Origin: Anaerolineales bacterium | GTDB taxonomy: Bacteria; Chloroflexota; Anaerolineae; Anaerolineales; UBA6668 | Direction: 5' to 3' | DNA length: 60,713 bases | Assembly: GCA_020630805.1 (NCBI GenBank) | Contig: JAHDIM010000003.1 | Coordinates: 1-60,713 of the forward strand | Part shown: piece by piece, positions 5,449-55,652 of the stretch | Layout: each line of letters opens with the position of its first letter | How positions within the stretch are numbered: position 1 is the first letter of the stretch | Program-made: the position numbers and the translations under genes | Notes under the pieces: model-generated | What the model was told of the DNA's origin: nothing | What the model saw: the letters and a program-made list of their open reading frames with translations, nothing else | Database searches by the model: none

Positions 5449-5544
5449 GTAACGATTAAATGTGTAAAAATACTCTCTATCTTGGCGAAAACTTGCCAAA
5501 GACCGAGGAATTATAAAGGGGGACGGCAACTTGTGCAGAAGCAG

Positions 5545-10440: not shown

Positions 10441-10453
10441 AATAAAGTTTCTC

Positions 10454-11379: not shown

Positions 11380-11402
11380 TCAGTTATTTACCACGCAAAA
11401 CT

Positions 11403-12698: not shown

Positions 12699-12711
12699 AG
12701 AACCTTGTCAA

Positions 12712-18504: not shown

Positions 18505-18507
18505 GAT

Positions 18508-32711: not shown

Positions 32712-32727
32712 ATGACAACAGTGAGGA

Positions 32728-33677: not shown

Positions 33678-35510
33678 TTATGCCCACTGCTCCATAAACA
33701 TTTTGGTGCTAAGGAAGTAAAACAAGAATTTACTTTCACTATTCGGCAGTTGGTCTTTTTGAATAATCTGCGCTATTTTATCGCGTTTGACATAGTCAAA
33801 AATTGGGCTGTTGTCCAGCAAATAGGCTTTTGTAGCGGGGTCGGACAGCTCTAGAAAATCAAAAATTGGCGCATTGAAACCAACCTTACGGCGATTATCT
33901 AGAATTTTATCTGGCACAATACCGCGCATCGCTTCCCGCAAAACAGACTTCGCTGCGCCGTCTCTAATCAGGTGCCGTGACGGAATTTGATAGCAATGTT
34001 CATACAAGGCGCGGTCTAAAAATGGAGAGCGGTTCTCGATAGAGAAGTACATTGCATTGAGGTCTTCCTCATGTAGCACCTGACGCGTGGCTTCATGGAA
34101 GAGTTCATTCATCATCCGATTACGTAACACGCCTGGCACGTAGCGTTCTTCGGCAAAGGGCTCTGGCGTGTAATTGTGCAAAAATTGCGCAAACTCAACG
34201 TTCCCAAGATAAATATGCCCTCTAAATTCAGGATCTTTGACATACAAATCGGGCTGTTTCAAATACGGGTTGCGCACGATCGGCGCAATGTGTTTTTGCC
34301 AATTACGTAACGCTTGCGCGTGTTCTACAGGGTCATTGCTAACCTCGTATAGATAGGCGTTGTGATGGTCATAGTAGCCAGTAAACAGTTCATCTGCCGC
34401 AATGCCACTAATCGAGATTTTGTAACCATGTTGCGCAACCTGCGACATCAACAACCAATGTGCATAATACGTAATGGTTAGTACAGGTGCGTCGTGTTGC
34501 GCGACCAGCGTCTTGAGATTTGGTAGAAAATCGCTAGTGCTGATAGGCAATGCTGTGTGTTTCAGCCCTTGTTGTGTCACGGCGTGATCGATATAGTCTT
34601 GCTCTTCATAGCGGGCATCGGTATTCACAATGGTGAAGCCGTGCACGTCATAATCAAACACATTCTTAGCGATGCTAATTAACGAATTAGAATCAATGCC
34701 ACCACTCATCGCAAAAGCTAACGGCACATCAGCCCGCAAGCGCAATTCAACCGACCGAATAAGGCGCGCGCGCGCCTCAGCAACCGCCTCGGCATAGCTC
34801 ATATCTGGCTGTTGCGCCACAATTGGGTCCCAATAGCGGAAGCTAGAAATAGTACGCGCCGCGTCTAACTGCACCACAGCGCCTACTTCTAGGTAATAAA
34901 CCCCTTCAAAATAGGTTTCATCAGATTTACTTAGCGACTTATAGCCATTTACCAAATAACGCTGTACATAAGGGATATTGATCGGCAATTTATGCCCCAA
35001 TAAAGCAAAAATGAATTTGATCTCAGACCCAAAGTAAACGCCATTATGCGCGCGGTATAGGTACAGCGGTTTTTCACCAAAGCGATCACGTGACAGGCTA
35101 AGTTGCTCTTTGGCACTGTCATAGTAAGCAAACGCCCACATTCCTTCACAACGGTCTAGAAATTCTAAGCCATCACAGCGTAAACCTTGCAGCATCACCT
35201 CAGTATCAGACTCAGTTTCAAATTCAACCTGATGCGACTTGCTTAAAGCCGCCCGCAATTCAAGGTAGTTGTAAATTTCACCATTGATTGCGAGAGATTG
35301 CTGTCCACGGCCCATTGGCTGATTAGCGCGAGCGTCTAAATCAATAATACTTAGGCGTGAATGTAATAAATGTACATGTTGCCCCTTAGATGTCTGCCAA
35401 GACTGTACAGCTCGATGATCTGGTCCGCGACGGCCCATCTTTGCTAAACAAGCGTCTAGCAATTTATCCTCAAGCGGTGCGTCACCTATATAGCCAGCGA
35501 TACCACACAT
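33678..35510 (-). CDS. AsnB-like glutamine-dependent amidotransferase
   Basis: Class II glutamine amidotransferase domain with the nucleophile Cys2 (MCGIAGYIGD) and RGPD near 28, NGEIYNY near 76, then the ATP-pyrophosphatase domain with SGGIDS at 269-274 and IENRSPFLDRALY downstream. All catalytic parts are present. In a sugar locus next to a nonulosonate synthase such enzymes amidate a sugar carboxylate or provide nitrogen for an acetamidino group rather than making asparagine. Length 610, normal. Confidence 0.9.
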   Translation of the reverse strand: MCGIAGYIGDAPLEDKLLDACLAKMGRRGPDHRAVQSWQTSKGQHVHLLHSRLSIIDLDARANQPMGRGQQSLAINGEIYNYLELRAALSKSHQVEFETESDTEVMLQGLRCDGLEFLDRCEGMWAFAYYDSAKEQLSLSRDRFGEKPLYLYRAHNGVYFGSEIKFIFALLGHKLPINIPYVQRYLVNGYKSLSKSDETYFEGVYYLEVGAVVQLDAARTISSFRYWDPIVAQQPDMSYAEAVAEARARLIRSVELRLRADVPLAFAMSGGIDSNSLISIAKNVFDYDVHGFTIVNTDARYEEQDYIDHAVTQQGLKHTALPISTSDFLPNLKTLVAQHDAPVLTITYYAHWLLMSQVAQHGYKISISGIAADELFTGYYDHHNAYLYEVSNDPVEHAQALRNWQKHIAPIVRNPYLKQPDLYVKDPEFRGHIYLGNVEFAQFLHNYTPEPFAEERYVPGVLRNRMMNELFHEATRQVLHEEDLNAMYFSIENRSPFLDRALYEHCYQIPSRHLIRDGAAKSVLREAMRGIVPDKILDNRRKVGFNAPIFDFLELSDPATKAYLLDNSPIFDYVKRDKIAQIIQKDQLPNSESKFLFYFLSTKMFMEQWA

Positions 35511-35515
35511 AAGGG

Positions 35516-36514
35516 CTAGCGCACCGCGTCCAAAGCGAACTGTTCACCGGCAACCATTGCGTCATTTAGCGTTTTACCGATTAGTAGCGCTTCTTCACCT
35601 GGCGCAATACCAGTTCCCGGGCGCGTCCAGGTGAGGTCTGCTGCGGTCAGCACGTGCCCAGCAGCTAAATCATGGGCAGCCACAATCGATCTTCGGTAAG
35701 CTGAAACGCCCTGTTGTTCTGGCGCTTGAACAATTTTTTCGACGTTGCCGAGCATGTTCTCTACACGCCGCACCGCGGTCACTAAGGCCTGCAACTCAGC
35801 CGGATCTGCGGAGAGCTGATGGTCACGGAAATCAGAATAGTTTTTATCTAACGTAAAGTGTTTTTCAAGAATAGTGGCCCCAAGCGCAACCGCAGCAATA
35901 CAAGCATCAATGCCAAGGGTGTGGTCAGAATATCCCACAGCAATATCCGGATATTGCGCCTTGAGGAATTTGATTGTGTTCAACCCCGCATCTTGATCCA
36001 ACGTTGGATAGCTGCTAACACAATGTAAAAGCGCGAGTTCATTCTGGGTGTGAGCATGGGCCCGATAAACCTTGACCAAGGTGTCAATTTCAGCACCAGT
36101 ACACAATCCTGTTGAAATAATTGTTGGGTTTGGCAAGGCCGCTGTCGCGCTAATCAATGGAAAAAACTGGTTATCACCCGAGGAAATCTTCACAAAATCC
36201 ACTGCATTGCCAACAAACGCAACGCTGGGAACATCAAACACGCTGGCCGATGTTTTCACGTTGAGCGTGTGTGCCAAGGCAAACAGCTCTTGAAATTGGT
36301 CGTCTGTCAGTTCGTAAGACTTCAACTGCGCTAAGCGTTTATTTTTCTCTGGCCCAACCAAACGTTCAGGACGAATCACCTGAAATTTAACAACATCTGC
36401 ACCACTTTCTGCGGCAGCATGCACCATTTCTTTGGCAACAGTAAAGTTGCCTTCATGATTATTACCAATTTCGGCAATAACCAATACGGGTCCGTTTGAT
36501 AAAGAATTACTCAA
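35516..36514 (-). CDS. NeuB-family nonulosonate synthase (SpsE/LegI-like)
   Basis: Condenses a 6-carbon amino sugar with PEP to a 9-carbon nonulosonic acid. Seen: VIAEIGNNHEGNFTVAKEM, GADVVKFQVIRPERL, IISTGLCTGAEIDTL, GYSDHTLGIDA, EKHFTLDKNYSDFRDH, and a C-terminal antifreeze-like SAF domain. The DFRDH segment differs from the PGPDH of the copy at 49542 and the PTADR of the copy at 41188, so substrate choice probably differs. Start is a TTG with AGAGG just upstream. Confidence 0.92.
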   Translation of the reverse strand: MSNSLSNGPVLVIAEIGNNHEGNFTVAKEMVHAAAESGADVVKFQVIRPERLVGPEKNKRLAQLKSYELTDDQFQELFALAHTLNVKTSASVFDVPSVAFVGNAVDFVKISSGDNQFFPLISATAALPNPTIISTGLCTGAEIDTLVKVYRAHAHTQNELALLHCVSSYPTLDQDAGLNTIKFLKAQYPDIAVGYSDHTLGIDACIAAVALGATILEKHFTLDKNYSDFRDHQLSADPAELQALVTAVRRVENMLGNVEKIVQAPEQQGVSAYRRSIVAAHDLAAGHVLTAADLTWTRPGTGIAPGEEALLIGKTLNDAMVAGEQFALDAVR

Positions 36515-36541
36515 ATTAGCCTCTGTCTAGATAAACGCCAT

Positions 36542-37273
36542 TTAGAAGGCTGCATCTACATAGTGCAGCACATATTTTGTAGACTCGATTGAAAAGCCTA
36601 GCTTCTCATAAAACCGCATTGAAGGAATGTTAGACACCTGCGTGCCCACCCGCCAACGGTCAATATTTGGAATTGATTGCTGCGCAAAAGCGACCAGTTG
36701 CATTGCAATGCCCTGCTTCTGAAATGCCTGATCGACGGCAATCAAATCGATCGTAAGTGTGGCTTCTCGCTTGATAAGCAGTAAAAAGCCCACAATTTTC
36801 CCCTGATGTTCTGCAACAACTAAGTCTGTGCCACGTGTTCCTAAAAAATAATTACCCACCCATGCAGACCGCGTTTTTAAACCAGCTGCTGGCGGCACCT
36901 TAGGATCAATCAAAAAACGATTATAAACAAAACTCGCGCGCGCCATTGTTTTCACAGGCGTTGCGTCAGAGGGGGTGGCAAATCTATATGTGATCTGCGT
37001 TGAAGCGCTGGTAGAAGAAACATCGGGCGTAACCGCTGGTGTTACAAACACGATGTTGGTATCAATAAGCCGAAACTGCTGCTGCTGATAAGCGGCAACC
37101 CACTCAACGGCCACAGTTGGGAGCTTGACATCTACAAAAACGCCACGCTCCCGCTTGTTATGTGATTTGAGTTCAGCCCACGTTGGGCTCGCTAACGCTT
37201 GAGCATAGTCTGTAACTGTATAAGCATCTAAGGCCCATAAGTCAGATAGCCAAGCATTTTTGACAATTGTCAT
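36542..37273 (-). CDS. GNAT N-acetyltransferase (WecD-like)
   Basis: The C-terminal GNAT domain has LVVAEHQGKIVGFLLLI, IDLIAVDQAFQKQGIAMQLV (acetyl-CoA loop) and VSNIPSMRFYEKLGFS. The N-terminal 100 residues and FLIDPKVPP resemble the dTDP-fucosamine acetyltransferase WecD. It likely acetylates the C4 amino group added by the aminotransferase two genes upstream. 243 residues. Confidence 0.85.
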   Translation of the reverse strand: MTIVKNAWLSDLWALDAYTVTDYAQALASPTWAELKSHNKRERGVFVDVKLPTVAVEWVAAYQQQQFRLIDTNIVFVTPAVTPDVSSTSASTQITYRFATPSDATPVKTMARASFVYNRFLIDPKVPPAAGLKTRSAWVGNYFLGTRGTDLVVAEHQGKIVGFLLLIKREATLTIDLIAVDQAFQKQGIAMQLVAFAQQSIPNIDRWRVGTQVSNIPSMRFYEKLGFSIESTKYVLHYVDAAF

Positions 37274-37281
37274 TTGCCTAA

Positions 37282-38298
37282 TTAGGCATTTTCAAGTGAT
37301 TGATACCACTCAATATATTCACGAAAACCAGTATCGATTGGATATTGGGGATCATATCCAATTAGCCGACGCGCCTTATCTACACTGAGAGTACCCCGGA
37401 TTGGCAAGGCCGTGTCACGCTCTGATTCTTCGAGTTGAATATCAGGAAAGTATTCCCGCGTAATTGTCGCCAGATCAGCAATAGAGCGGGCGCTACCGTA
37501 GGTCATATTGAAAATTTCATTATAGGAATTTGTATTTTCAATACAATTTACAATCCCACCGACCAAGTCGTTGATGTAGGTAAAGTCTAGCTTTTCTGCC
37601 CCACCACCGTTCAGGCGCAATTTATGACCTTGTAGGGCATTTTCAATAAAGATTTGACCGACACGACGGCTAACACAACGTTGACCGTACAATGCTGAAG
37701 GCCGAATGATGGTATACGGCAAGTCAAACACGTGGTTGTATGCCATCACCATTTTTTCACCGGCAAACTTCAATGACGCGTACATGCCAAACGGTTCGCA
37801 GTGGGTTTCCTCATCAACTGAAGCCGTTTTGAAGTGGCCGTATACCGTACTTGAAGAGAAATAAATAAACTGCTCAACATGCCCACGTGCATAATCTAGC
37901 GCATTTTCTAGCGTGCGTAGGCTATGGTCAAACGTGCTGTATGGGTTCTTATTAGACTTACCAGCATGTGAAATTGCAGCTAAATGCACAATCACCTGCG
38001 GATTGATCTCACGTAGTGTTTTAGAAAGACCACCATAGTCACGCGCATCTTGCACATGCAACGGAACCTCTGCGGCGCGCAACAGATCTAACCGTTCATT
38101 CAAAATACGTAAGTACAAGTCACGGTTCCGCACGGGCTGCGCAGTGGTGGAATATTCCAACAAGTTGTTGACTTGCAAACTATCAACGACATGGATATCT
38201 GCCCCTAATTCTTTTAGAGTAAGTGCCATGTGGTGCCCAATAAAGCCAGCCCCGCCAATGATGGCAATGCGGCGGTCTTTGATTTCTAGTATGCTCAT
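37282..38298 (-). CDS. NAD-dependent epimerase/dehydratase (SDR)
   Basis: Extended SDR: RIAIIGGAGFIGHHMALTL, VHLAAISHAGKSNKNP, YFSSSTVYG and the catalytic YASLK in GMYASLKFAGEKMV, plus KLDFTYINDLVGGI. Not PglF-type, since the Tyr is present. It is coupled by an ATGA overlap to the DegT gene, so a LegB/LegC-style dehydratase-aminotransferase pair is plausible; an epimerase role is the alternative. Confidence 0.87.
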   Translation of the reverse strand: MSILEIKDRRIAIIGGAGFIGHHMALTLKELGADIHVVDSLQVNNLLEYSTTAQPVRNRDLYLRILNERLDLLRAAEVPLHVQDARDYGGLSKTLREINPQVIVHLAAISHAGKSNKNPYSTFDHSLRTLENALDYARGHVEQFIYFSSSTVYGHFKTASVDEETHCEPFGMYASLKFAGEKMVMAYNHVFDLPYTIIRPSALYGQRCVSRRVGQIFIENALQGHKLRLNGGGAEKLDFTYINDLVGGIVNCIENTNSYNEIFNMTYGSARSIADLATITREYFPDIQLEESERDTALPIRGTLSVDKARRLIGYDPQYPIDTGFREYIEWYQSLENA

Positions 38299-39443
38299 TT
38301 TGTCACCTCGATTAAGGCGTCTTTCAGCGTTGCCACGATGTAAGCCATATCGTCTTGGTCTAAGTGTGGGCCAACCGGCAGCGCAATAGATTGTTCACTA
38401 ATGCGGGTTGCATTTGGATAGTCTGACTCTTGGTAGCCATACTTTTCACGGTAATACGTCAATTTTGGGACTGCTTTAGGATAGTACACGCTTGTACCAA
38501 CACCATGTGCTTTCAAATAGTTCACAATCTCAAAACGCAGTGGCGCAATGTCATCTTTCAACACAACTGAGAGACAGTAATAGCTGCTTTGAATACGGTC
38601 TGTAGAAGACTCAAACAAATCAATTTCAGCAATGTCTTGTAACCCAGCCTGCAACGCTTCATAGTTAGCTTTACGGGCCGTCAGGAAGCCGGGCATGCGT
38701 TTAACTTGCTCAATGCCAATGGCAGAGGCAATTTCATTGAGCCGATAGTTGAACCCCAGCATATTGACATCGTAAACGCCAGGCACTTTGCGTTCACCAA
38801 CGTGACGATCCACCCCAAAGGCCCGCTGGCGCGTAATCTTTGTGGCAATATCCTCATGCTTAGTGGTCAGCATGCCACCTTCAGCTGTTGTCATATGTTT
38901 GACCGGGTAAAACGAATACGCCCCAACATCACCAAACAACCCAACGTGTTTGCCATCTACGTAGCCACCAATTGCCAAGGCGCAATCTTCAACAACAAAC
39001 AAATTATGTTTATTCGCGATTGTCATCAGTTTTGGCATGTCTACCGGTAAACCGAGGTAGTGCACAAGCGAAATTGCTTTTGTGTTGGGTGTGATTGCAG
39101 CTTCAAGCTGATCCAAATCCATATTACCGGTACGTAATTCGGCATCAACAAACACCGGTTTAGCACCGGTCAGTTCAACCGCATGTGCGGTAGCATTATG
39201 GGTTTGCGCTGGCACAATAACTTCATCACCGGGGCCAGTGCCCAAATAGAAGTAACTCAGGTGCAACGCGGCTGTACAAGAGGAGACAGACACCGCATAA
39301 GGCGAACCAGTGAATGTAGCAAAGTCCGCTTCAAATTGCTTTGCACGCGGCCCATGCACAAGAATATGGCCTTCTAAAACTTCGGCGACAGCTGCTTTTT
39401 CTTCAGCACCAATAATTGGTCGCCCAAAAGGTACGTTTCTCAC
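38295..39443 (-). CDS. DegT/DnrJ/EryC1 sugar aminotransferase
   Basis: PLP enzyme with VSVSSCTAALHLSYF, VVEDCALAIGG and the Schiff-base Lys in SFYPVKHMTTAEGGML. The GTG at 39443 (N-terminus RNVPFGRPIIG) has AAGGA about ten bases upstream and matches family starts; the frame can extend to a TTG at 39470. Acts with the SDR and GNAT genes downstream in one nonulosonate precursor module. Confidence 0.9.
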   Translation of the reverse strand: MRNVPFGRPIIGAEEKAAVAEVLEGHILVHGPRAKQFEADFATFTGSPYAVSVSSCTAALHLSYFYLGTGPGDEVIVPAQTHNATAHAVELTGAKPVFVDAELRTGNMDLDQLEAAITPNTKAISLVHYLGLPVDMPKLMTIANKHNLFVVEDCALAIGGYVDGKHVGLFGDVGAYSFYPVKHMTTAEGGMLTTKHEDIATKITRQRAFGVDRHVGERKVPGVYDVNMLGFNYRLNEIASAIGIEQVKRMPGFLTARKANYEALQAGLQDIAEIDLFESSTDRIQSSYYCLSVVLKDDIAPLRFEIVNYLKAHGVGTSVYYPKAVPKLTYYREKYGYQESDYPNATRISEQSIALPVGPHLDQDDMAYIVATLKDALIEVTK

Positions 39444-39470
39444 TATTAAAAAATCCTTATCTATTCGCAA

Positions 39471-40463
39471 TCAATCTAACGTAATTTCAGTTCCCGTTCG
39501 GATTGACTCTTCAATTGCTAAACACACGCGCATCACATGGAAGACATCAGCCTTCAACACATAGGGATTACGATCGTCACGAATTGCATCCACAAAATCA
39601 CGCACTAGTTCGCCTTTATCAACAGCGGGGTAGGCCTGATCGGTAATCATCGGGCTATCCTGATGTGCCCGCGACGTATAGTATTTGCCGCCCTCTAAGG
39701 TGTTCTCAAATGTCTTTTTCGCGCCGTATACGCTCATCCGATGGAAATGCGGGTAGACACAGCCAAAGTTTGCCGAAACCTTACCAACCACCCCATTTGC
39801 AAATTTGAGTAAGCAAACTGTGAAGTCATTATAGGCAAATGTTGTATCTGCTGAGACAATTTTATTTCCCATCGCAGAGACGGACGTCACTTTACTATCC
39901 ACTAGCCAGTACAGCAAGTCAATTACATGAATCGCTCCGCCAAAAGTCACTGAATAATAAGGGATCTGTCCGCGCCAGCCTGCAACAATTTTATGCAAGC
40001 GCCCATAATTGTAATCGCCTTCCACAAAATAGAGGTCACCGAATTCCCCAGCGTTAACCTGCTGTCTGAGATCTTGAAATCGCGGCGCTTGGCGCAAGAT
40101 CAAATTAGACGAGAGTTTTAGGTGCTTATGCTGAGCCGCTAACGCTTCAATTGCAGTCAGTTCTGCGGCGGTAAGGCAGATAGGTTTTTCAACAAAGACG
40201 TGCTTACCAGACGTCAGGGCTGCTTCAATTTGTTCAAAATGATGATTGTCATAAGACGCAATGACGACCGCATCAATTTGCGGATCGGCCAAGATAGCCG
40301 CTGCATCAGTATGCGAACGTGCCAAAGGAAATTGCGCGTGGACGGCGGCCAGCTTATCGGTATCAAAATCGGCAATCGCGAGCAATCTTGCATCTGGATG
40401 ACTTGCAATAGCATGGGCGTGCCGTTCGCCAACCCCAAGCCCAATAACGCCAAAGTTAATCAT
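39471..40463 (-). CDS. Gfo/Idh/MocA family oxidoreductase
   Basis: N-terminal Rossmann motif FGVIGLGVGERHAHAI, AVVIASYDNHHFEQI, and the family signature GKHVFVEKPICLT with the catalytic Lys. The C-terminal sheet domain has FGGAIHVIDLLYWLV. Oxidises or reduces a sugar hydroxyl/keto group with NAD(P). Such genes accompany NeuB and SpsF genes in many flagellar or spore-coat glycan loci, but no exact step is proven. It overlaps the cytidylyltransferase stop by 8 bases. Confidence 0.9.
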   Translation of the reverse strand: MINFGVIGLGVGERHAHAIASHPDARLLAIADFDTDKLAAVHAQFPLARSHTDAAAILADPQIDAVVIASYDNHHFEQIEAALTSGKHVFVEKPICLTAAELTAIEALAAQHKHLKLSSNLILRQAPRFQDLRQQVNAGEFGDLYFVEGDYNYGRLHKIVAGWRGQIPYYSVTFGGAIHVIDLLYWLVDSKVTSVSAMGNKIVSADTTFAYNDFTVCLLKFANGVVGKVSANFGCVYPHFHRMSVYGAKKTFENTLEGGKYYTSRAHQDSPMITDQAYPAVDKGELVRDFVDAIRDDRNPYVLKADVFHVMRVCLAIEESIRTGTEITLD

Positions 40464-41151
40464 GATAAGTCTCTAAAAAAGCTTGATAACGTGCAACAAG
40501 GTCAGTTACATCTAACCGGCCAACGGGGTCAGCTATGGTTGCTAGGAAGGCATTCAAAATGTTGTAATCCTGCTGGGTGTCAACAGAAAGTTGTAAGTCA
40601 CCAGCGGCGAGACCACTAGTGAAGTTTTCAATGTTAAACGCCGCTGAATTACGGTAGAAGTAACGTGTGACATGCTCTTGATCTTGCGCATCAAAGGCTG
40701 CGATGTTGGCCTGAAATAAATCAGCCGTAACAACTTCAACAGACAACCCTTTCGGGTACGACCGCTCCAGCGTGTTGGTGACAATGTCACTCGTGCCGTG
40801 TTGATGCAGCTGAATTGCGCGTTCTACAATCGAGATATTTACAAGCGGGCTATCGCCACAAATGCGAACAAATGCTGCCGCCGGATATTGCGCAAGCACC
40901 GTCTGATAGCGCTGCGCAACATTTGCCAAAGCGCCCCGAACACAAGCAATATCATGCGTCGCACAATACGCCGCAATCGAGTCGTCTGACGGTTCGCTAG
41001 ACGTTGCAATCACAAAGCGATTGGCTAAAACTGACTGGTCTAAGGCGTCCGCCAAATGTTGTAACAACGGCTTACCCGCTAGCGGTAGCAACACCTTCCC
41101 CGGTAATCGGGTAGAAGACATTCGTGACTGAATAATGCCAATATAAGTCAT
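40456..41151 (-). CDS. SpsF-type cytidylyltransferase (CMP-nonulosonate synthetase-like)
   Basis: Starts TYIGIIQSRMSSTRLPGKVL, the nucleotide-binding loop of SpsF/KdsB-like enzymes, with VIATSSEPSDD, VRICGDSPLVNI (metal Asp) and HVTRYFYRN. Activates a nonulosonic acid with CTP. The ATG at 41151 is one codon inside a TTG-started frame. A second such domain is fused in the gene at 51646-53736. Confidence 0.88.
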   Translation of the reverse strand: MTYIGIIQSRMSSTRLPGKVLLPLAGKPLLQHLADALDQSVLANRFVIATSSEPSDDSIAAYCATHDIACVRGALANVAQRYQTVLAQYPAAAFVRICGDSPLVNISIVERAIQLHQHGTSDIVTNTLERSYPKGLSVEVVTADLFQANIAAFDAQDQEHVTRYFYRNSAAFNIENFTSGLAAGDLQLSVDTQQDYNILNAFLATIADPVGRLDVTDLVARYQAFLETYHD

Positions 41152-41187
41152 CAAAAAGTTACCCGCTATAGCAGCAGGTGCGCCCGG

Positions 41188-42237
41188 CTAAGACGCAATC
41201 AGCTCCCAAGAAAGCGGTGTACCAGCAGCAACATCTGCTAGGCACTTACGCCCAATAACTGCCTCATAATTGCGCGTGTGTAACCCATGTGCTGGCCGCA
41301 CGGAGCGCACATTCTCAGCCGTAAACACCTCGCCAGCTTTAATGTCTTTGGAAACAAATAAAGACCGTCTAAACTTGATCGTCGCTTTCTCTTTATCTGT
41401 GCGTTGATACTTGATTTCACCCAAGGCTTTTTCTGTGGTTCTAATGGCCGTCACCATTGCTTTAAATTCGGCCGGTTCCATTGAAAACGCACGGTCAGCC
41501 GTCGGCATCTCACGTGATAATGTGAAGTGCTTTTCTACAATACAGGCGCCTAATGCCACCGCTGCTACAGGGATCGTTGCCCCCATCGTATGGTCAGACA
41601 AGCCACTGGGCACATTAAATGTTTTCGCCAAATGTGGAATTGTAGACAAGTTCATTTCTTCAGGAATAGCTGGATAGGAGCTCGTGCATTTCAACAATGC
41701 CAATTGTTCACACCCTGCCGCACGGGCAGCGGTAACGGCTTCGTCAATTTCCGCTAAGGTTGCCATGCCGGTTGACATAATAATCGGCTTGCCCGTTTGT
41801 GCCACGTACTTAATAAGCTGTACGTCTACATTTTCGAAAGACGCAATCTTGAAGACCGGCACATCCATCTCATTTAGAAAGTCAACAGCGGTCAGGTCAA
41901 ACGGCGATGAAAAACAATGAAGCCCTAAGTCTTCTGCAATTGCTTTCAGCTTAGGTTGCCATTCCCAAGGTGTGTATGCAGTTTGGTACAAATCGTAAAG
42001 GTGTTGACCTTCCCAAATTGTGCCGCTTTGCAAAAATAAATCACTATGACAATTAAGCGTAATCGTATCTGGAGTGTAGGTTTGTAATTTGATAGCATCT
42101 GCACCAGCGGCCTTAGCAGCTTCAACAATTCGGACGGCTACGTCAAAATCTTGCATATGGTTGGCAGACATTTCAGCAATTACATACGTGGGATGACCGG
42201 GGCCGATTTTACGGCCAGCAATTTCAATAAAATTCAT
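41188..42237 (-). CDS. pseI: Pseudaminic acid synthase
   Basis: NeuB-family TIM barrel with clear PseI hallmarks: IAEMSANHMQDFDVAVRI, IKLQTYTPDTITLNCH, GTIWEGQHLYDLYQTAYTPW, SDHTMGATIPV and EKHFTLSREMPTADRAFSM, plus a C-terminal SAF domain. It condenses 6-deoxy-AltdiNAc with PEP to give Pse. 349 residues. The matching PseG is 8.3 kb upstream in the same transcript; PseB and a definite PseC are not in the window. Confidence 0.95.
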   Translation of the reverse strand: MNFIEIAGRKIGPGHPTYVIAEMSANHMQDFDVAVRIVEAAKAAGADAIKLQTYTPDTITLNCHSDLFLQSGTIWEGQHLYDLYQTAYTPWEWQPKLKAIAEDLGLHCFSSPFDLTAVDFLNEMDVPVFKIASFENVDVQLIKYVAQTGKPIIMSTGMATLAEIDEAVTAARAAGCEQLALLKCTSSYPAIPEEMNLSTIPHLAKTFNVPSGLSDHTMGATIPVAAVALGACIVEKHFTLSREMPTADRAFSMEPAEFKAMVTAIRTTEKALGEIKYQRTDKEKATIKFRRSLFVSKDIKAGEVFTAENVRSVRPAHGLHTRNYEAVIGRKCLADVAAGTPLSWELIAS

Positions 42238-42246
42238 AGGGATGCG

Positions 42247-43900: not shown

Positions 43901-43995
43901 TGAGTATTACAACGCACTGTCTGAAAAATCACGCTTGGCCTCAACAACGCTAAACACACTTACTTTTGAGATGAACGTGAAAAAAACAACCACAA

Positions 43996-44682: not shown

Positions 44683-44686
44683 GAAA

Positions 44687-45382: not shown

Positions 45383-45388
45383 CGGTGA

Positions 45389-47045: not shown

Positions 47046-47055
47046 GCGGGCCTAA

Positions 47056-47514: not shown

Positions 47515-47527
47515 ACGCAATGTAGGC

Positions 47528-48193
47528 TCACTTCTTTTCAACAACGACTCTCCATTCAGCATGTTGGCTATTGTCAGCACCAACCTGATTATTCCAGAGC
47601 GTTTCTTCACAAGTGTGCATGTGCCAATTGGCAACCGGGAACATCTCCATAATCATAGCTTGAGTATAAAAACAAATTGCGCCAACACCGGTTAGGTTGC
47701 CTTGCGTAATTTCTGTATTCAGCCCGCTTTTGCCAGCTGCACTCGTATGACTAACAGAATACACATTAAAAAAGAATTTACCGCCAGCTTTTAGTGTTCT
47801 ATGCACTTCAGCGACAGCTTGTTGCGCTTGCGCGTAAGCACAGCAGGTAATCCCAGCACGGTCAATCGCCAGATGAAATACGGCATCCTCAAAAGGAAGG
47901 CTTGTAAAGTCGGCGACACGCAAATCTGCGGTGAGACCTTCTTCTACAAAGCGCTGTTTTGCATACTCGATTGCGGTTGTGCTGCCATCAATGCCAGAGA
48001 CAGAAAACCCTTCGCGGGCCGCAAACCAAAGATTACCTGCCGTTCCACAGGCAACTTCTAAAATTTCAACCTGATTGCGTTCAATGTCGCGCGGGGCATT
48101 CCGGAAAACAAATGACACAACCGCATCCCATGGATAGCGATTCCTATGCCCTTGTGAATAGAGCTCATTCCAGATTGGGTCAAATGCGGTCAT
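47528..48193 (-). CDS. Class I SAM-dependent methyltransferase
   Basis: Motif I VEILEVACGTAGNLWFAA, SGIDGSTTAIEYAKQRF and FHLAIDRAGITCC, with KAGGKFFFNVYSVSH. ATG 48193 overlaps the flavoprotein TGA (ATGA), which favours it over a 21-residue longer frame. The family resembles small methyltransferases in nonulosonate loci. About 220 residues. Confidence 0.87.
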   Translation of the reverse strand: MTAFDPIWNELYSQGHRNRYPWDAVVSFVFRNAPRDIERNQVEILEVACGTAGNLWFAAREGFSVSGIDGSTTAIEYAKQRFVEEGLTADLRVADFTSLPFEDAVFHLAIDRAGITCCAYAQAQQAVAEVHRTLKAGGKFFFNVYSVSHTSAAGKSGLNTEITQGNLTGVGAICFYTQAMIMEMFPVANWHMHTCEETLWNNQVGADNSQHAEWRVVVEKK

Positions 48194-49539: not shown

Positions 49540-49541
49540 AC

Positions 49542-50597
49542 TTATTTTTGCAAATCTGTTTTAGAAAACATATACCCAATCGCAACATCATGCGGCAGCG
49601 TATACCCAATTAGGTAGTCCATTTGGGCTGGCGGTAAGCCACTGCCCGGACGCCGAAAGGCGATGTCATCTTTAGACAGAGTGTGCCCCTTTGGCAACGC
49701 CCGCGCCGCAACGCAAGACAAGCGATAAGCCTCACGGTTTTCATTTTCTACACCGCTTAGTCCCAGCGCCGAAACGCCAAGATTCGCTTCAATCTTACGA
49801 ACCCCTTGCACAAGCTGCGTAAATTCAGCCGGGTCTGAAGAAAATCGATGATCTGGGCCAGGCAAATTGCGATCTAACGTGAAATGTTTCTCAATGAAGC
49901 AAGCCCCTAATACCACTGCGCCAATCGCCGCCTCAATACCTTCTGTGTGATCACTAAAACCCACTGGCACCCCAAAGGTCTGTTGTAAAGATGGAATCTT
50001 GCGCAAATTCACCTCATCTGAGGGACACGGATAAGCAGACGTACAATGCAAAAGCACTAAATTCTGATTGCCTGTGGCCTTAAATGCCCGCACAGACTCG
50101 TCAATATCAGCAACGGTTGCCATGCCAGTAGATAGAACGGTGGCAACGCCACTTTGCCCCATATAAGCAACCAGCGGCAGGTTAGACAAATAGTCTGAGC
50201 CATTCTTAACAATTGGGGACCCTAGCGCCACTAGCGCATCAACACCATTTTTGTTAGTAGGCGTGCTATGAAAGATAATGCCAACTTCATCACAATACGC
50301 CTTCAACATGCCCAACTGAGCATTGCTAAGTTCATACCGCTTGAACATATCAAACTGAGGCTCGCACACGGGTTCACCCTGTGAGATATAGTCATACATC
50401 AGTGAGCGATCAGATAGAAAATCTTCGGTGACATAGTTCTGAAACTTGACAGAATCAGCACCAGCTTCCTTAGCAGCATCAATCATTTGCTTTGCTAAAT
50501 CCATATCACCGTTATGGTTGATACCAATTTCTGCAACAATAAAGCACGGTTCACCCGCACCAAGCGCACGGTCTCCAATTGTAATTTTAGTGTTCAT
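49542..50597 (-). CDS. NeuB-family nonulosonate synthase (NeuB/LegI-like)
   Basis: Seen: FIVAEIGINHNGDMDLAKQM, ADSVKFQNYVTEDF, TVLSTGMATVADID, GFSDHTEGIEAAIGAVVLGA, EKHFTLDRNLPGPDHRFSS, and a C-terminal SAF domain. The PGPDH segment is the Neu5Ac/Leg-type version. The ATG at 50597 overlaps the upstream PseG stop by 11 bases; a frame to 50642 adds 15 residues. 351 residues. Confidence 0.94.
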   Translation of the reverse strand: MNTKITIGDRALGAGEPCFIVAEIGINHNGDMDLAKQMIDAAKEAGADSVKFQNYVTEDFLSDRSLMYDYISQGEPVCEPQFDMFKRYELSNAQLGMLKAYCDEVGIIFHSTPTNKNGVDALVALGSPIVKNGSDYLSNLPLVAYMGQSGVATVLSTGMATVADIDESVRAFKATGNQNLVLLHCTSAYPCPSDEVNLRKIPSLQQTFGVPVGFSDHTEGIEAAIGAVVLGACFIEKHFTLDRNLPGPDHRFSSDPAEFTQLVQGVRKIEANLGVSALGLSGVENENREAYRLSCVAARALPKGHTLSKDDIAFRRPGSGLPPAQMDYLIGYTLPHDVAIGYMFSKTDLQK

Positions 50598-51636
50598 AAG
50601 ACAACATCGCCTCAACGACGCGGCTGGCACCTTTGCCATCAATTATGGTGGCCGCACGCTGGCCTAACTGTTTACGTAATGCTGGCGCAGTTAAGAAATG
50701 CGCTAAGCGTTTTTGGACAGCAGCCGTTGACTCTGGCGTAATCACCCGTAAATCAACCTGCAATGCTGCCGCCGCATTTGCTAAATATAATGCGTTGGCA
50801 TTCTGGTTATCTGCAAGCACGCAAATAAACATTGGCAACGCAAAAAATGCGATCTCCCAACACGTAGAACCACCGGCACAGATAACCGCATCAAACGTCG
50901 GAATAAATGTTGCCATATTTTCTACATAGTGTATTAGCGTCACATCATGTGGCAGCGTTTGCACCAACTGCTTCAATTCCGCAACATGCTCATTTTGGGG
51001 ACCGGTAATCACGGTCAGGGAAAGCGGCTTTGCTTGGAACGTAGCCAATGCTTGCAAAATACGCTGCGTGACGTTATCAGGATCGCTGCCGCCCATCGTA
51101 ATCAGGACAGAAAGTTGCGCATTAGTCGGTTTAGGCAACTGCGAAGCCGTAATAAATTCAGACCGTAACAGTGTATATTGCGTACCAAGCAGTAAACGCG
51201 CCTGTGGGCTACTGTCCTGATAGGGATAGTCTGCCGCTGTAATGTTTTGATTGAGGATCAGGTCTGCCTGATAAGTAGGGAGATGATGATAGTCGTCTAA
51301 GACGAGCAGTTGCCAACCCGCCATTTTAATCTGTTCTTGATAGGCAAGATCAAAGTGATAGCCATCTAATACCACCCAGTCGGGTTGGACCCGTTGAATG
51401 TCACCTAAAAGCGCTGCCAATTGCTTTGCCGGCGGCGCTGAAGGTGAGACAGGCAGAATCTGCGCAGACAATAGCAAGAACTTCGCCAGCAAATCTGGCG
51501 CGGTGCAGTCTGTCACAACAACAAGCTGACCGCCTGTGGCATGCCAAGCCTGACCCAAAGCGAGGCAGCGCATAAAATGCCCTACCCCAATCTTTGGATT
51601 CGCATCTATTCGTAATAAAAGAGTTTTTTCTGGCAA
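50587..51636 (-). CDS. pseG: UDP-2,4-diacetamido-2,4,6-trideoxy-altropyranose hydrolase
   Basis: Releases UDP from the Pse precursor. The N-terminus has RIDANPKIGVGHFMRCLALG with the catalytic His at about residue 20, then VLDDYHHLP, SVLITMGGSDPDNVTQRIL and DAVICAGGSTCWEIAFF of the GT-B type. Related to SpsG. The start is a TTG; no ATG precedes the conserved R-I-D-A. Overlaps the NeuB-type gene by 11 bases. Confidence 0.93.
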   Translation of the reverse strand: MPEKTLLLRIDANPKIGVGHFMRCLALGQAWHATGGQLVVVTDCTAPDLLAKFLLLSAQILPVSPSAPPAKQLAALLGDIQRVQPDWVVLDGYHFDLAYQEQIKMAGWQLLVLDDYHHLPTYQADLILNQNITAADYPYQDSSPQARLLLGTQYTLLRSEFITASQLPKPTNAQLSVLITMGGSDPDNVTQRILQALATFQAKPLSLTVITGPQNEHVAELKQLVQTLPHDVTLIHYVENMATFIPTFDAVICAGGSTCWEIAFFALPMFICVLADNQNANALYLANAAAALQVDLRVITPESTAAVQKRLAHFLTAPALRKQLGQRAATIIDGKGASRVVEAMLSYEH

Positions 51637-51645
51637 GGGTAGCCG

Positions 51646-53736
51646 CTAGCTAACTAAGCGTTTGAACCGCGAGTGCGCTTCAGGACCAATCAGCGCGTCT
51701 TGAATAGTGTCCGTTTCGATATGATCTTTGAGAATACGGAAGACTTTCTCTACAGAGACCAAATACTCGGCGACGATTTCGGCGCTGTGCGCGTTTGTGA
51801 AATACACGCCACCGGTTGCCAAATAGCCCTCAGAAAGCATGTATTGGGTAAACAATGTGCGTAATGCGTTGGCTTGCGGGTGGTCAAAGCCAAAATGGCT
51901 TAATGCCGGCAGCCCGTCAACATGTACAGCAATCCCTACAGTCTCGGCAGCAGCCCGCCAGCCTTCTTGCACCTGATGGCCAAGTGCATTCAATTTCTCG
52001 GCAACATTCGCCGCCTGATATTTACGGATTGTTGCAATCGCGGCAGCTGGCCCAATTCGTTCAGTCCAGTAAGAGCTACTGATAAACGTTTCTTGCGCCG
52101 CGCTCATTACGCCTTCAGTCCCAATAATTGCGGCCATGGCATATCCGTTGCTCACCGCTTTGGCAAACATTGCGATATCTGGATTCACATCATAAAGCAA
52201 GTGCGCTCCGCCAGCATTTTGCCTAAATGCCGCTGTGCACTCGTCAAATACTAGTACAGCGCCAATTTCATCCGCAATTGCGCGTACAGCCGCTAAATAT
52301 CCCGGCTCAGGCTGAACAGTCCGGATCGGCTCCATAACGATTGCCGCCACTTCGCCAGCGTGCGTGCTGACAAGGTCGCGCAAATTTTCAATATTATTGA
52401 ACTCAAATGGGAAGGTCGTGCCAACTAATCCGCGCGGCACACCCTTTGGCGCTAAGCCTGGAATTAGATGGCCGTCTAAGCCAGCATCATCTGCCAAATT
52501 TGTAGACAGATACCAGTTATGCCAACCATGATACCCACAAAATAAGACTTTATCTTTACCCGTGGCGGCGCGTGCAATCCGGACAGAAATTGCCATTGCT
52601 TCGCCACCAGTGCGGGCATAGCGCACCATATCAGCCCAAGGATGCAGTTCACACAACAGTTCGGCCAACTCTACTTCTTCTGGACAGTTCAGCGTAGACA
52701 TCACGCCATTTTGAAAGGCCTCAAGCACGGCCGCATCCACATCCGGATCCTTAGCACCCAGAATGCAAGTGCCAATGCCATTGTGTGCCATATCAATATA
52801 AGCATTACCATCCAGATCCCAAACGGTTACCCCTTCAACTTTGCTGTAATAAGAAGGCCAAAGATCGGGCAACATCATTTCTGGCCGCTTGGATAACAGT
52901 TGGGTGCCACCTGGAATTAGGCTTTTGGCATGTTCGTATAGTTTCTGACCAGTTCCGTTTTGAAAGTTGTTATCTGTCATGAGTCCACGCTCTGCTGCTA
53001 GGGATTTTGCATACCCTTCATTGCGTTCATACATTGTGTTGTATGTCATCAAATGTGGGTTTGCTTTTACATATGCCAATGTTTCTGCGTAAGTAAACGC
53101 AGGATTATTAGCGTACAAGGCTTGATAAATAATATCGATTAGTTCGAAATCTTCTGGTTCATCTACGGTCCAACGTAAGTGCGACCAGTTTTCTGCAGCG
53201 CCTAAGTGTCCAATTTTGAACAATTCAGGCTGCCGATTGATGTAAGGGGTAACGTGTTCACGCTGTGAGGGGAGCTCAGCGTTTTGCCACGCTTCTTTCA
53301 GAGCGTCTAGGCTAAAGACTTCAACATCTAACCCGTCTGGAAAAACAGGGTTGAGCGCATTGGTTGCATAATCAAAGTCGTTATTCAAATAGAGGTCAAT
53401 CACCTCATCAATAATCTCTGGATCAATAACGGGGCAATCCCCTGTCAGGCGTACCACGGTGTCAATGTCAGGATATTGCAGTGCGGCCTGATAAAACCGA
53501 TCCAGCACATCGTTCAAATCGCCAGCGAACGCATCCACCTGATGCGCCGCGCACAGGTCAAGAATTTGCGTGTCACTGCTATCGTTACTGGTTGCAACAA
53601 CAAGTTTGTCAATTCGCTTAGAGCGCTGTACGCGCCGAACCTGCTGGATAAGCATTGGCGCGCCCGCTAAGTTTTTCATGACTTTACCGGGCAATCTTGT
53701 AGAAGAAAAGCGAGCTTGAAGAATTGCAAGAATCAT
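51646..53736 (-). CDS. SpsF cytidylyltransferase fused to class III aminotransferase
   Basis: One 696-residue frame with two enzymes. Residues 1-235: SpsF-type transferase with LAILQARFSSTRLPGKVM, VRLTGDCPVIDPEI and SQREHVTPYI. Residues from about 256: class III, glutamate-1-semialdehyde-type aminotransferase with IPGGTQLLSKRPEMML, VIFDECTAAF-like VLVFDECTAAFRQ, and the PLP Lys in MFAKAVSNGYAM. Both active sites appear intact. Joining CMP activation to an amination suggests an aminated CMP-nonulosonate or precursor. ATG overlaps the aldo/keto reductase stop. Confidence 0.9.
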   Translation of the reverse strand: MILAILQARFSSTRLPGKVMKNLAGAPMLIQQVRRVQRSKRIDKLVVATSNDSSDTQILDLCAAHQVDAFAGDLNDVLDRFYQAALQYPDIDTVVRLTGDCPVIDPEIIDEVIDLYLNNDFDYATNALNPVFPDGLDVEVFSLDALKEAWQNAELPSQREHVTPYINRQPELFKIGHLGAAENWSHLRWTVDEPEDFELIDIIYQALYANNPAFTYAETLAYVKANPHLMTYNTMYERNEGYAKSLAAERGLMTDNNFQNGTGQKLYEHAKSLIPGGTQLLSKRPEMMLPDLWPSYYSKVEGVTVWDLDGNAYIDMAHNGIGTCILGAKDPDVDAAVLEAFQNGVMSTLNCPEEVELAELLCELHPWADMVRYARTGGEAMAISVRIARAATGKDKVLFCGYHGWHNWYLSTNLADDAGLDGHLIPGLAPKGVPRGLVGTTFPFEFNNIENLRDLVSTHAGEVAAIVMEPIRTVQPEPGYLAAVRAIADEIGAVLVFDECTAAFRQNAGGAHLLYDVNPDIAMFAKAVSNGYAMAAIIGTEGVMSAAQETFISSSYWTERIGPAAAIATIRKYQAANVAEKLNALGHQVQEGWRAAAETVGIAVHVDGLPALSHFGFDHPQANALRTLFTQYMLSEGYLATGGVYFTNAHSAEIVAEYLVSVEKVFRILKDHIETDTIQDALIGPEAHSRFKRLVS

Positions 53737-54638
53737 TTATTTACCTGCCATAACCCTGGGTTGAGATAGTGCGAATCACCTTGAAAACTAAACTTTTGAT
53801 ACTCAGCCTGTGTCAATGCGGCTGGCGCTTGCCACAAAGTATTCAATTGCCTAAGTTGGGCTTCTGAATTGACACCAACCACAGCAACATCAATAGCTGG
53901 ATGCGTTTTCACATAATCCAACGCTAATTGTAATTTTGAAATATTACGCGGCTCAGTTTGGGCAAACACGGCATTCAGATGCGCAACAAGCGGCGCAAAG
54001 TAAGGATCGAGATTGCCTAAATCCATCACAAGTAAGCCCTGCAAAAATACAGACCGCGCATGAATTTCTACGCCCCGCGATTTTAGCGTATTTAGAAATG
54101 TGTGCCCTGCTGTCGTAGGGTCTAAATAATTGACAGGGATCTGCAACACATCAAATTCAAATTTCGAAAAAAGTTGCTCTGCTTCTGCAACTGAGTAAAC
54201 AGAAACGCCAATTTTTTCAACCAGCCCTTGCTGTTTGAAGCGTCGCAAAAGTGCATAAAAATCCGCTGCCCCAGCCACGTGTAGGTTATTTGCCGCGTGA
54301 ACTAATACCGCATAAATCTTTTCAAGTTGTAAATTTTGTAGCGATTGGTCAAATTCTTGTTGCAACTGTGCAATTTCAGCGGGACCAATATTTGTATACG
54401 GCTGTGCGCCAATTTTAGTAATGACCTGTGCCGTTTTTGTCTGTGCAGTAAAGTTACCCAGTACACGCTCACTATCGCCATAGGCTGCGGCGGTATCTAA
54501 ATACGTCACGTTTGCGCTAGCGGCGTAGTTCAAAATCGTTTCAACTTCAGCTAAACTCGTTTTGCCAGCCGCATTGGAAATGCCATAGTCAAGGCCAAAT
54601 TGAACCGTTCCAAGCCCAAGGGCACTGGTTGTCATCAT
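53733..54638 (-). CDS. Aldo/keto reductase
   Basis: TIM-barrel NADPH reductase: LGTVQFGLDYGIS, the tetrad in LDTAAAYGDSE (Asp, Tyr), VITKIGAQ (Lys) and YAVLVHAANNL (His). The C-terminal AVVGVNSEAQLRQL binds the cofactor. Frequent in nonulosonate loci next to PseG/SpsF genes, where it may reduce a keto sugar. 301 residues; ATG 54638 is followed by another ATG. Confidence 0.9.
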   Translation of the reverse strand: MMTTSALGLGTVQFGLDYGISNAAGKTSLAEVETILNYAASANVTYLDTAAAYGDSERVLGNFTAQTKTAQVITKIGAQPYTNIGPAEIAQLQQEFDQSLQNLQLEKIYAVLVHAANNLHVAGAADFYALLRRFKQQGLVEKIGVSVYSVAEAEQLFSKFEFDVLQIPVNYLDPTTAGHTFLNTLKSRGVEIHARSVFLQGLLVMDLGNLDPYFAPLVAHLNAVFAQTEPRNISKLQLALDYVKTHPAIDVAVVGVNSEAQLRQLNTLWQAPAALTQAEYQKFSFQGDSHYLNPGLWQVNK

Positions 54639-54644
54639 GCTACT

Positions 54645-55652
54645 TTATTCTCCGTTGGAGCGTTTTACATCCATAAAAACTGACATTTTTATCGCGCCGC
54701 CAAAGCCACTTTTGAATTTTGCAATATTCTGCATTTTAGGTGTCATCGGCGCAGAAGAATCTGCATAGGTCTGCCCCATATGAAAGCTAGGGATGCCAAG
54801 CTTAATACATTGTTGCAATGCCAACCACATAATTCCGTGATTCACAGGTTGACCAAATAACTCGCGTTTAGCAACAGAAGAACTATACTGACAAACACCA
54901 GTGTGCATCCCAGAAAACAAGGACGCCCCAACCAATTCGCCAGCCTCATCACGCGCCTCAACAACAAAAGAAGCACCTGCCACAATTGCATCCCATTGCA
55001 GGTCCCATGTTGCTTGGCTCCGCGTCTGTTTACCAGCTAAGGAAAAATGCAAAGCCTGAAACGCATCAAAGTCTGCACGCTTAGCACTCGGTCCAGAATA
55101 CAGATTGTGCGTCCATTTAGTTAGCGCACTCTTGATCAGCGGGCGATAACTCTTGCGGATATTCTGCCAAACGCTAGCATCATCTGAAAGCACGATGACA
55201 CTTTCATAGAAATTAGAAACTGCTACCTGCCACTGCAGATCTTGTAAAAAATAAGCCGCAAAAGCAGACAAACTGCCATCGATTAGCACGTCCTGCAATC
55301 TAAACTGATTAATACCGTGTGCAGCCAACAATTTCAAAAAATGCGCCGTTACGGAACGCCGCACGATGCCATCATTTTTAGCAATAACCAACACCTCATC
55401 GCCCCAGTTATTAAGAACAGTTGGGGCATCTTCAGCGGCAGCAGATGCAATTGTACAGAATACAGCAATGCCTGAATTAGCATCAGAGAAACGGCCAAAG
55501 GAGACATCTTCAAATTGCTGAGCCGTATAGTACTCAGCTTGGTATTGGTAGTGCCGCGTATTCTGCAAGCGCAAGGTATACGCGTTAGGCTCTGCTAGCG
55601 TTAGCGCATGTGGGTGGAGATTTGAGGCAGTTTGAATAATATGGTGTGACAT
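54645..55652 (-). CDS. FemAB-like GNAT acyltransferase
   Basis: A 335-residue protein of the FemAB/GNAT_6 kind: WQNIRKSYRPLIKSAL, FVVEARDEAGELVGASLF, VNHGIMWLALQQCI and FHMGQTYADSSAPMTPK. FemAB-type proteins move an acyl or aminoacyl group to an amine. First gene of the glycan transcript, so its promoter should lie in 55653-55826. The donor is unknown. Confidence 0.82.
   Translation of the reverse strand: MSHHIIQTASNLHPHALTLAEPNAYTLRLQNTRHYQYQAEYYTAQQFEDVSFGRFSDANSGIAVFCTIASAAAEDAPTVLNNWGDEVLVIAKNDGIVRRSVTAHFLKLLAAHGINQFRLQDVLIDGSLSAFAAYFLQDLQWQVAVSNFYESVIVLSDDASVWQNIRKSYRPLIKSALTKWTHNLYSGPSAKRADFDAFQALHFSLAGKQTRSQATWDLQWDAIVAGASFVVEARDEAGELVGASLFSGMHTGVCQYSSSVAKRELFGQPVNHGIMWLALQQCIKLGIPSFHMGQTYADSSAPMTPKMQNIAKFKSGFGGAIKMSVFMDVKRSNGE

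Follow-up and report, generated by a model that had tools for sequence, protein, structure and literature searches.

A probable mosaic of three nonulosonic acid modules in an Anaerolineales contig, one of them a synthase cassette found in several phyla

The window analysed here is the whole of contig C46 (60,713 bases) from a metagenome-assembled genome (MAG) of an Anaerolineales bacterium, an assembly of 4.67 Mb in 500 contigs which is 84% complete and 6.8% contaminated. Between positions 33678 and 55652, where all the annotated open reading frames (ORFs) lie on the minus strand, it carries three nonulosonic acid (NulO) synthases of the NeuB family, designated by their first coordinate: 35516 (NeuB1), 41188 (PseI) and 49542 (NeuB3). 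This region is probably a mosaic of three NulO modules, one for pseudaminic acid (Pse), one built around NeuB3 and one in which NeuB1 would work by a route free of PseG and NeuC; their gene content, gene order, families and clades were observed directly (Table 1). The unusual item of the region is the cassette surrounding 35516 and not the number of synthases. A PF03102 match, in many cases weak, was found in 57 of 61 genomes (this one and its relatives), and G010, G023, G026 and G050 have four matches of more than 130 bits each, so that several synthases per genome are ordinary in this order. In the labels, C stands for contigs of the window's MAG, G for genomes and L for loci of relatives.

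Three synthases in separate clades

Each of the three proteins is an intact ORF with the PF03102 NeuB and SAF domains in Pfam. They are identical at E25, K53, Q55, K129, S132, S154, Y186, S213, H215, H236, D247 and R314 (numbering of Neisseria meningitidis NeuB, NmNeuB), which we take to be catalytic positions, and they differ in the substrate-side motif, which reads DFRDH in 35516, PTADR in 41188 and PGPDH in 49542. Two trees place the three proteins apart from one another: a quick one of 109 rows, drawn from 123 candidate NeuB proteins of 270-460 aa with the omission of 21 near-duplicate or same-family rows and of the synthase on contig C66, and a careful tree of 58 rows, with 17 of the 42 cassette rows and 41 others, the four solved references being partial chains. 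These positions rule out that the three synthases are recent paralogues. An earlier sequence-only reading of the window had described three distinct synthases with these motifs, a PseI-type 41188 and a PseG, and had expected more than one product; all of this was borne out, 41188 and 50587 passing the respective NCBIfam cut-offs (Table 1), and the phylogeny that it proposed as a check gave separate clades. The products named below, like the order of steps in the NeuB1 module, are predictions made from sequence.

Synthase 35516 stays below the cut-offs of both NCBIfam models, TIGR03569 (NeuB/NnaB; 277.9 bits against 399.65) and TIGR03586 (PseI; 217 bits against 340.25), as does 49542 (Table 1). 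A fold search with its AlphaFold model groups it with NeuB, PseI and SpsE.

The cassette around NeuB1

The distribution of 35516 relatives was analysed in a scan of one genome per species (84,980 species), which gave 321 relatives, the best 80 of which were examined. By a similarity rule 43 of these 80 are cassette-type and, together with G013 and the window, they make a set of 45 loci. L176 passed the rule but has another place in the tree, and was removed manually from the signature, order and hydrolase counts; L128 (Actinomycetota), missed by the ORF picking, and L148, whose ORF is too long, are absent from the signature rows. In G013, a genome of one contig and 99% completeness from the same order as the window's, the genes for SpsF, Gfo/Idh, DegT, a short-chain dehydrogenase/reductase (SDR), GNAT, NeuB and AsnB follow one another as they do in the window from 41154 to 33678. 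Enough flank, taken as 5.3 kb or more upstream and 2 kb or more downstream of the synthase, was available for 33 loci, and the exact order was found in 18 of them. All but one of these 18 belong to seven named phyla, Pseudomonadota, Cyanobacteriota, Chloroflexota, Verrucomicrobiota, Bdellovibrionota, Actinomycetota and Ca. Handelsmanbacteria, the names being those of the sequence records, which are mostly MAGs. L128 has FRDH and the SpsF, Gfo/Idh, DegT, SDR, synthase and AsnB genes, with a 308-residue ORF without match at the place of GNAT; its inclusion brings the exact order to 18/34. Over the 45 loci, many of them on short contigs, homologue clusters were counted for AsnB (38), SDR (37), DegT (33), Gfo/Idh (30), SpsF (29), GNAT (25) and the methyltransferase that often follows the cassette (24), the SDR, DegT and AsnB clusters including a few paralogues.

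The synthases of these loci share a signature. FRDH, with one inserted residue before the catalytic Asp, was found in 41 of 42 cassette synthases (42 of 43 with L128) and, apart from 35516 itself, in none of 66 other rows. The stretch after Q55 has 44 residues in 35516 and two relatives against 53-57 in NmNeuB, PseI and SpsE. In the careful tree, 18 cassette rows (35516 included) and L193 are set apart from the 39 others, among them all four solved references, by a branch with 100/100 support. For L184_9980 the two trees disagree, the quick one putting it with the cassette clade and the careful one outside. Our guess is that the inserted Arg has an acid-binding role.

The neighbouring enzymes are also conserved. 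The SGGxDS loop is present in 33 of 33 AsnB proteins checked, and the N-terminal MCG in 30 of 33. 4,6-Dehydratases of the RmlB/LegB type are recognized by the Asp-Glu of a T-D-E-x-YG motif, and ArnA/UXS-type decarboxylases depend on the Glu of this motif. In 35 of 35 SDR proteins SSS[MT] stands before VYG or AYG in place of T-D-E; a 4,6-dehydratase role of 37282 was therefore rejected, as was a decarboxylase role for want of the Glu, and the cassette has no visible 4,6-dehydratase. The best folds for the AlphaFold model of the SDR are UDP-sugar 4-epimerases (Z 40), and this search does not decide its function since 4,6-dehydratases score 37.

Other genes accompany the cassette in part of the loci. 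A cluster with a WbuX-type amidotransferase occurs in 25 of the 45 (one member tested: 342.7 bits, cut-off 203.2), and no WbuX was found at 1e-3 in the window's own genome. L123, L136, L147, L155 and L157 have a formyltransferase cluster and no GNAT, the formyltransferase lying between SDR and synthase in three of them; the member tested, from L123, resembles enzymes of ArnA-type sugar N-formylation (174.9 bits). A protein of about 130 residues (for instance L099:6663-7016) recurs in 15 of the 45 loci and adjoins the WbuX-type amidotransferase in G013, whose copy has no Pfam or NCBIfam match. Just downstream of the window's cassette, at 30969-32750, a full-length DUF6044 membrane protein is encoded (423.8 bits).

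Release of the sugar and order of steps in the NeuB1 module

In the known routes to Pse, to legionaminic acid (Leg) and to the bacterial neuraminic acids, the hexose is freed by PseG/SpsG or by NeuC/LegG. Deaminoneuraminic acid (Kdn) is an exception, because it does not branch from UDP-N-acetylglucosamine (UDP-GlcNAc) in the scheme of PMC8053191. Among 44 loci searched, PseG was present only in the window: the ORFs of the 43 other cassette loci gave only short PseG or NeuC matches of less than 40 bits, and L128 gave none. In eight chosen cassette genomes PseG was not found at 1e-8. NeuC passed its cut-off in four of them, in each case 0.2-1.1 kb from a different NeuB; its distance from the cassette NeuB is 17 kb or more where the two are not on separate contigs. 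Three of the eight, Leptolyngbya PCC 6406 (G450), Methylocystis B8 (G452) and an Afipia MAG (G456), have no NeuB at E<=1e-20 apart from the cassette synthase, and in none of them does PseG or NeuC pass its cut-off; at 1e-8 no NeuC was found in G452 and G456, and 79.5 bits were obtained in G450. G013, which has two more NeuBs, also has neither hydrolase over cut-off. The sequence-only reading had supposed that at least one precursor comes from elsewhere or by an unexplained route. This holds for one synthase, which is 35516 and not that of the Pse route (see below): its route is the one truly unexplained, the cassette being widespread and no hydrolase having been found with it.

We propose that 35516, its own CMP transferase 40456 and the Gfo/Idh, DegT, SDR, GNAT and AsnB proteins would together form a mobile cassette for a distinct N-acylated nonulosonic acid, made without PseG or NeuC/LegG. 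There is about an even chance that the substrate of Gfo/Idh, DegT, SDR and GNAT is a hexose bound to a nucleotide, as it is in the Pse and Leg routes, and that the sugar is then released by a housekeeping pyrophosphatase and phosphatase, or by a hydrolase family outside TIGR03590 and TIGR03568, before 35516 condenses it with phosphoenolpyruvate (PEP). Such an order is in agreement with the nearest solved relative of DegT, the nucleotide-sugar enzyme ArnB, with the epimerase-like fold of the SDR, with the WecD-like GNAT and with the ArnA-like formyltransferase of L123. It is somewhat likelier than amination at the acid stage, because DegT, SDR and GNAT resemble nucleotide-sugar enzymes. Against it, no extra hydrolase-like family recurs in the clusters counted, although the 130-residue protein does recur, and the absence of TDE from the SDR leaves the cassette without a visible dehydratase. 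To our knowledge, moreover, the Gfo/Idh enzymes of nucleotide sugars all oxidise C3 and, as we understand the chemistry, the product formed from a 3-amino hexose could not close its usual pyranose ring.

It is possible, if rather doubtful, that amination comes after condensation. In this case, as for Kdn, the sugar that 35516 joins to PEP would be a plain one, free or phosphorylated; the nine-carbon acid, free or CMP-linked by 40456, would be oxidised by Gfo/Idh and aminated by DegT, then acylated by GNAT or the formyltransferase and amidated by AsnB. The missing hydrolase and the missing dehydratase would thus both be explained. The three genomes in which this is the only strong NeuB and neither hydrolase passes its cut-off are consistent with this order, and so is the altered substrate side (the inserted residue, FR before the catalytic Asp, the shorter loop), which is shared in part, as the loop is also short (43 residues) in a Leptospira synthase. 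That Kdn is the one product not branching from UDP-GlcNAc also favours it (PMC8053191). DegT is, on the other side, closer to ArnB (198 bits) than to the transaminase (140 bits) of 8-amino-3,8-dideoxy-D-manno-octulosonate (Kdo8N), and we know of no enzyme of the cassette families acting on CMP-nonulosonates. In Kdo8N synthesis KdnA and KdnB aminate after the ulosonic acid is formed, the sole precedent known to us for amination at this stage; the cassette would have this in common with it, differing in that its oxidoreductase is of another family and its DegT is weakly like the KdnA structure.

A more tentative proposal still, which we hold to be unlikely, is that the cassette makes a new class of amino-nonulosonic acid spread over many phyla, in which FRDH marks a different acceptor sugar and the amino group is added after the nine-carbon acid, so that a nucleotide-sugar hydrolase would not be needed.

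The trio of Gfo/Idh, DegT and acyltransferase is typical of the Wbp/Wlb pathway of diamino sugars. The cassette resembles it by this trio and by the WbuX-type cluster, and differs in being joined to a NeuB and a CMP transferase and in that a nucleotide-sugar dehydrogenase cluster occurs in only 9 of the 45 loci. No relevant report of the cassette gene set was found in the open-access literature searched by gene-set terms, and the available excerpt of PMC10483923 makes no mention of Chloroflexi. The phylogeny of the synthases, by the method of Lewis et al. 2009, serves to predict which sialic-acid-like sugar is made, and divergent Accumulibacter synthases were left out as possibly of other specificity (PMC8053191); these might be of the 35516 class. 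With the FRDH clade, one unassigned synthase class acquires a signature and a conserved gene set and, in Leptolyngbya PCC 6406 and Methylocystis B8, strains in which no other strong synthase was found, so that the product and the missing hydrolase step are directly testable.

Pseudaminic acid module, NeuB3 and neighbouring genes

Table 1. Features of the window, with the matches on which each assignment is based (scores in bits)
Feature	Position	Strand	Evidence
PglF-like membrane 4,6-dehydratase (named by likeness) and LegC-family aminotransferase	2465..5529	-	PF02719 388; TIGR03589 183.7, below 407.75; TIGR04181 (LegC) 367.3, below 420
Methyltransferase often after cassette	32728..33573	-	PF13489
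AsnB-type glutamine amidotransferase, last cassette gene	33678..35510	-	TIGR01536 354.8, over 267.1
NeuB1 NulO synthase, FRDH subfamily	35516..36514	-	PF03102 and SAF; under both NCBIfam cut-offs
WecD-like GNAT N-acyltransferase	36542..37273	-	NF008212 86, below 219
NAD-dependent epimerase-like SDR	37282..38298	-	Motif SSSTVYG, no TDE dehydratase motif
DegT/ArnB-like aminotransferase	38295..39470	-	PF01041; nearest solved relative by sequence ArnB, 198
Gfo/Idh/MocA oxidoreductase	39471..40463	-	PF01408/PF22725
SpsF-type cytidylyltransferase, first cassette gene	40456..41154	-	PF02348 95.6; same place in other cassette loci
PseI pseudaminic acid synthase	41188..42237	-	TIGR03586 499.2, over 340.25; with C. 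jejuni PseI at 100/100 in the careful tree
Probable tailoring genes: HAD hydrolase, PylC-like ATP-grasp, PIG-L deacetylase, WbqC, methyltransferase, DegT	42247..47045	-	Pfam; methyltransferase 45389 assigned by eye, outside the Pfam scan
GNAT acetyltransferase, PseH candidate	47056..47634	-	29-32% to the C-terminal part of the PseG fusion in G189, G023
NeuB3 synthase, PGPDH type	49542..50642	-	TIGR03569 350.3, below 399.65; TIGR03586 262.4, below 340.25
PseG/SpsG-type UDP-sugar hydrolase	50587..51636	-	TIGR03590 218.9, over 153.55; motif GVGHFMR
Fusion of SpsF-type cytidylyltransferase (N-terminal) and class III GSA-like aminotransferase (from about residue 262)	51646..53736	-	PF02348 115.3; PF00202 125.3; NCBIfam stretch at residues 262-694
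Aldo/keto reductase	53733..54638	-	PF00248
FemAB-like protein	54645..55652	-	TIGR04421 104.6, below 250

The Pse route appears nearly complete in this MAG as judged by its predicted PseB, PseC, PseG and PseI and the SpsF domain of 51646. PseB, not visible in the sequence-only reading, indeed lies outside the region; it was found over cut-off on contig C152 of the same MAG (498.3 bits against 407.75), which refutes its absence from the genome, and is directly followed by PseC (453.7 against 423.5). The PseG at 50587 is the single match to this family in the MAG. PseB and PseC, perhaps 47056 as PseH, then 50587, 41188 and the SpsF domain of 51646 would lead to CMP-pseudaminic acid, and the aldo/keto reductase, the class III aminotransferase and the genes at 42-47 kb would serve for tailoring. 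With the canonical PseBCHGIF set this route shares PseB, PseC, PseG and PseI, all over cut-off; it differs in that the genes are on two contigs, the CMP transferases are SpsF-like and PseH is uncertain. Indeed, 40456 gave 20.5 of the 205.7 bits of TIGR03584 (PseF), a family which is not among the 25 listed, out of 74, for 51646. For 47056 no NCBIfam match was found at 1e-8, the PseH model not having been searched genome-wide.

Comparable operons were found in relatives. Those of G189 and G023 contain a PseG-GNAT fusion together with a PseI and an SpsF, which share 63-65% identity with 41188 and 43-44% with the N-terminal domain of 51646, respectively; PseB and PseC are also in the G189 operon and neither is on the 6.4-kb contig of G023. 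An Uhrbacteria contig carries, in order, PseB, PseC, a class III GSA-like aminotransferase (52%), an aldo/keto reductase (28%), SpsF (47%), a synthase and a PseG-like gene (26%), the last without NCBIfam match at 1e-20. A fusion of SpsF and class III aminotransferase covering both domains was not found among the matches listed at E<=1e-40 in 400 genomes of the phylum, with at most two candidates scored per genome. Twenty fetched regions gave eight standalone homologues of this aminotransferase (L101-L107, L116); window-like NulO genes were near it only in L116, the neighbours being judged by likeness to proteins of the window, C152, C103 and C66, and a Chloroflexota-wide role of this aminotransferase as a NulO gene was thus rejected. 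At L116 (G422, 6861-13530), the standalone aminotransferase (32%) is accompanied by a NeuB of the C66 type, an ORF resembling phosphatases and an SpsF that shares 40% identity with that of the window.

The extra genes of the Pse module have precedents, as Aeromonas islands and a Vibrio cluster carry similar ones. Aeromonas flagellar glycosylation islands with pse genes contain, in group I, genes for an aldo/keto reductase, class III aminotransferase, HAD-IA, deacetylase, methyltransferase and glucuronic acid dehydrogenase and, in group III, a Gfo/Idh/MocA gene (PMC7874193). The window is alike in that the first five of these group I types and a sugar dehydrogenase are encoded beside its pse genes (PMC7874193), and differs in the fusion of its SpsF to the class III aminotransferase and in having two more synthases at the locus. 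In Vibrio, one pse cluster has a fusion of an SpsF-like protein with an aldo/keto reductase (PMC7371886).

NeuB3 probably makes a legionaminic-type sugar, by analogy with Bacillus subtilis. There, Leg is made from UDP-linked precursors and depends on spsC, D, E, G and M, and its transfer requires spsF (PMC7439481). It is possible that NeuB3 likewise uses UDP-linked precursors and the shared PseG/SpsG-type hydrolase, and the PglF-like and LegC-family pair at the left end of the window could feed it by such a route. A candidate is present for each member of a UDP-legionaminic set of this type (SpsM-like dehydratase, LegC-like aminotransferase, acetyltransferase, SpsG, SpsE and SpsF), those for LegC and the synthase being sub-threshold. 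The likeness to the SpsM-C-D-G-E-F system lies in UDP-linked precursors with SpsG and SpsF and in SpsE as the nearest solved relative of 49542 (PMC7439481), at 191 bits by phmmer against 175 for NeuB and 168 for PseI. The differences are that the PglF-like and LegC-like genes are 44 kb away, that 49542 is not grouped with SpsE in the careful tree and that its product is predicted. In keeping with the earlier remark that LegG/NeuC is not visible, the search of the 84%-complete genome gave no NeuC/LegG over cut-off (best 76.4 against 235.9 bits).

Several observations weigh against the mosaic reading. The cassette is rearranged, partial or absent in 15 of the 33 loci with enough flank; no cassette surrounds the synthase in L133 and L137, and L137 reads FPDH, as the sole non-FRDH of the 42 cassette relatives. 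The 35516 type is rare in its own phylum, where among 300 other genomes only G013 exceeds 40% identity. L193 (Pelagibacteraceae), in the wider 35516 clade, has neither FRDH nor cassette, and two genes away lies a gene with divergent likeness to PseG (21%, 58 bits), which has no NCBIfam match at 1e-20; this single case, on a long branch, is what a link between FRDH and independence from PseG would lead one to expect. Synthase 49542 is on no starred branch smaller than half of the careful tree, its Leg-type reading is based on sub-threshold matches (350 of 399.65; LegC 367 of 420) and precedent, and a relative of it (41%, L108 in G010) is beside a NeuC of 454 bits. Given the completeness, contamination and fragmentation of the MAG, C152 is possibly misbinned and gene absences are soft, and the assignment of 47056 as PseH is weak and uncertain.

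A count of only two CMP-activating domains, noted in the earlier reading, is correct for this contig, where a six-frame search with PF02348 found 40456 and the N-terminal third of 51646, and not for the genome, since a further PF02348 gene, here called NeuA-like, is on C103. The argument drawn from it is weakened because 40456 goes with 35516, the SpsF domain of 51646 resembles the Pse SpsF of relatives and the C103 gene is additional; a third synthase without CMP partner was rejected on the conserved cassette order and the SpsF of the relatives' Pse operons. The presence on the contig of a single PseG and two CMP domains beside three synthases could suggest that these are redundant copies for one sugar, or are in part inactive. 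This is very improbable, for they fall in separate clades, retain their catalytic residues and have different conserved neighbours.

A fourth synthase of the MAG is on C66, its gene being interrupted by an N gap; the type is found at 57-63% identity in many relatives and at 94% in one genome of the same genus. The end of C103 cuts the NeuA-like gene, whose last residues read the same as the start of C66, and on C66 this shared start is followed by a HAD-like ORF and then by the fourth NeuB. On C152, a FemAB-like gene (3220-4167) directly follows PseB-PseC and is 42% identical to 54645; the two proteins may transfer acyl or amino-acyl groups to nonulosonic acids. FAD/amine-oxidase-like proteins, 24% identical, are near NulO genes at both loci (48190-49539 in the window, 5726-7108 on C152). 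Elsewhere in the window, 17971-20348 encodes a CDP-glucose 4,6-dehydratase (477.4 bits, over 278.45) with RmlC-like and nucleotidyltransferase genes, and two C-methyltransferase-domain genes (12712, 15704) are near them; together they would form a CDP-linked deoxysugar route, possibly to a branched sugar.

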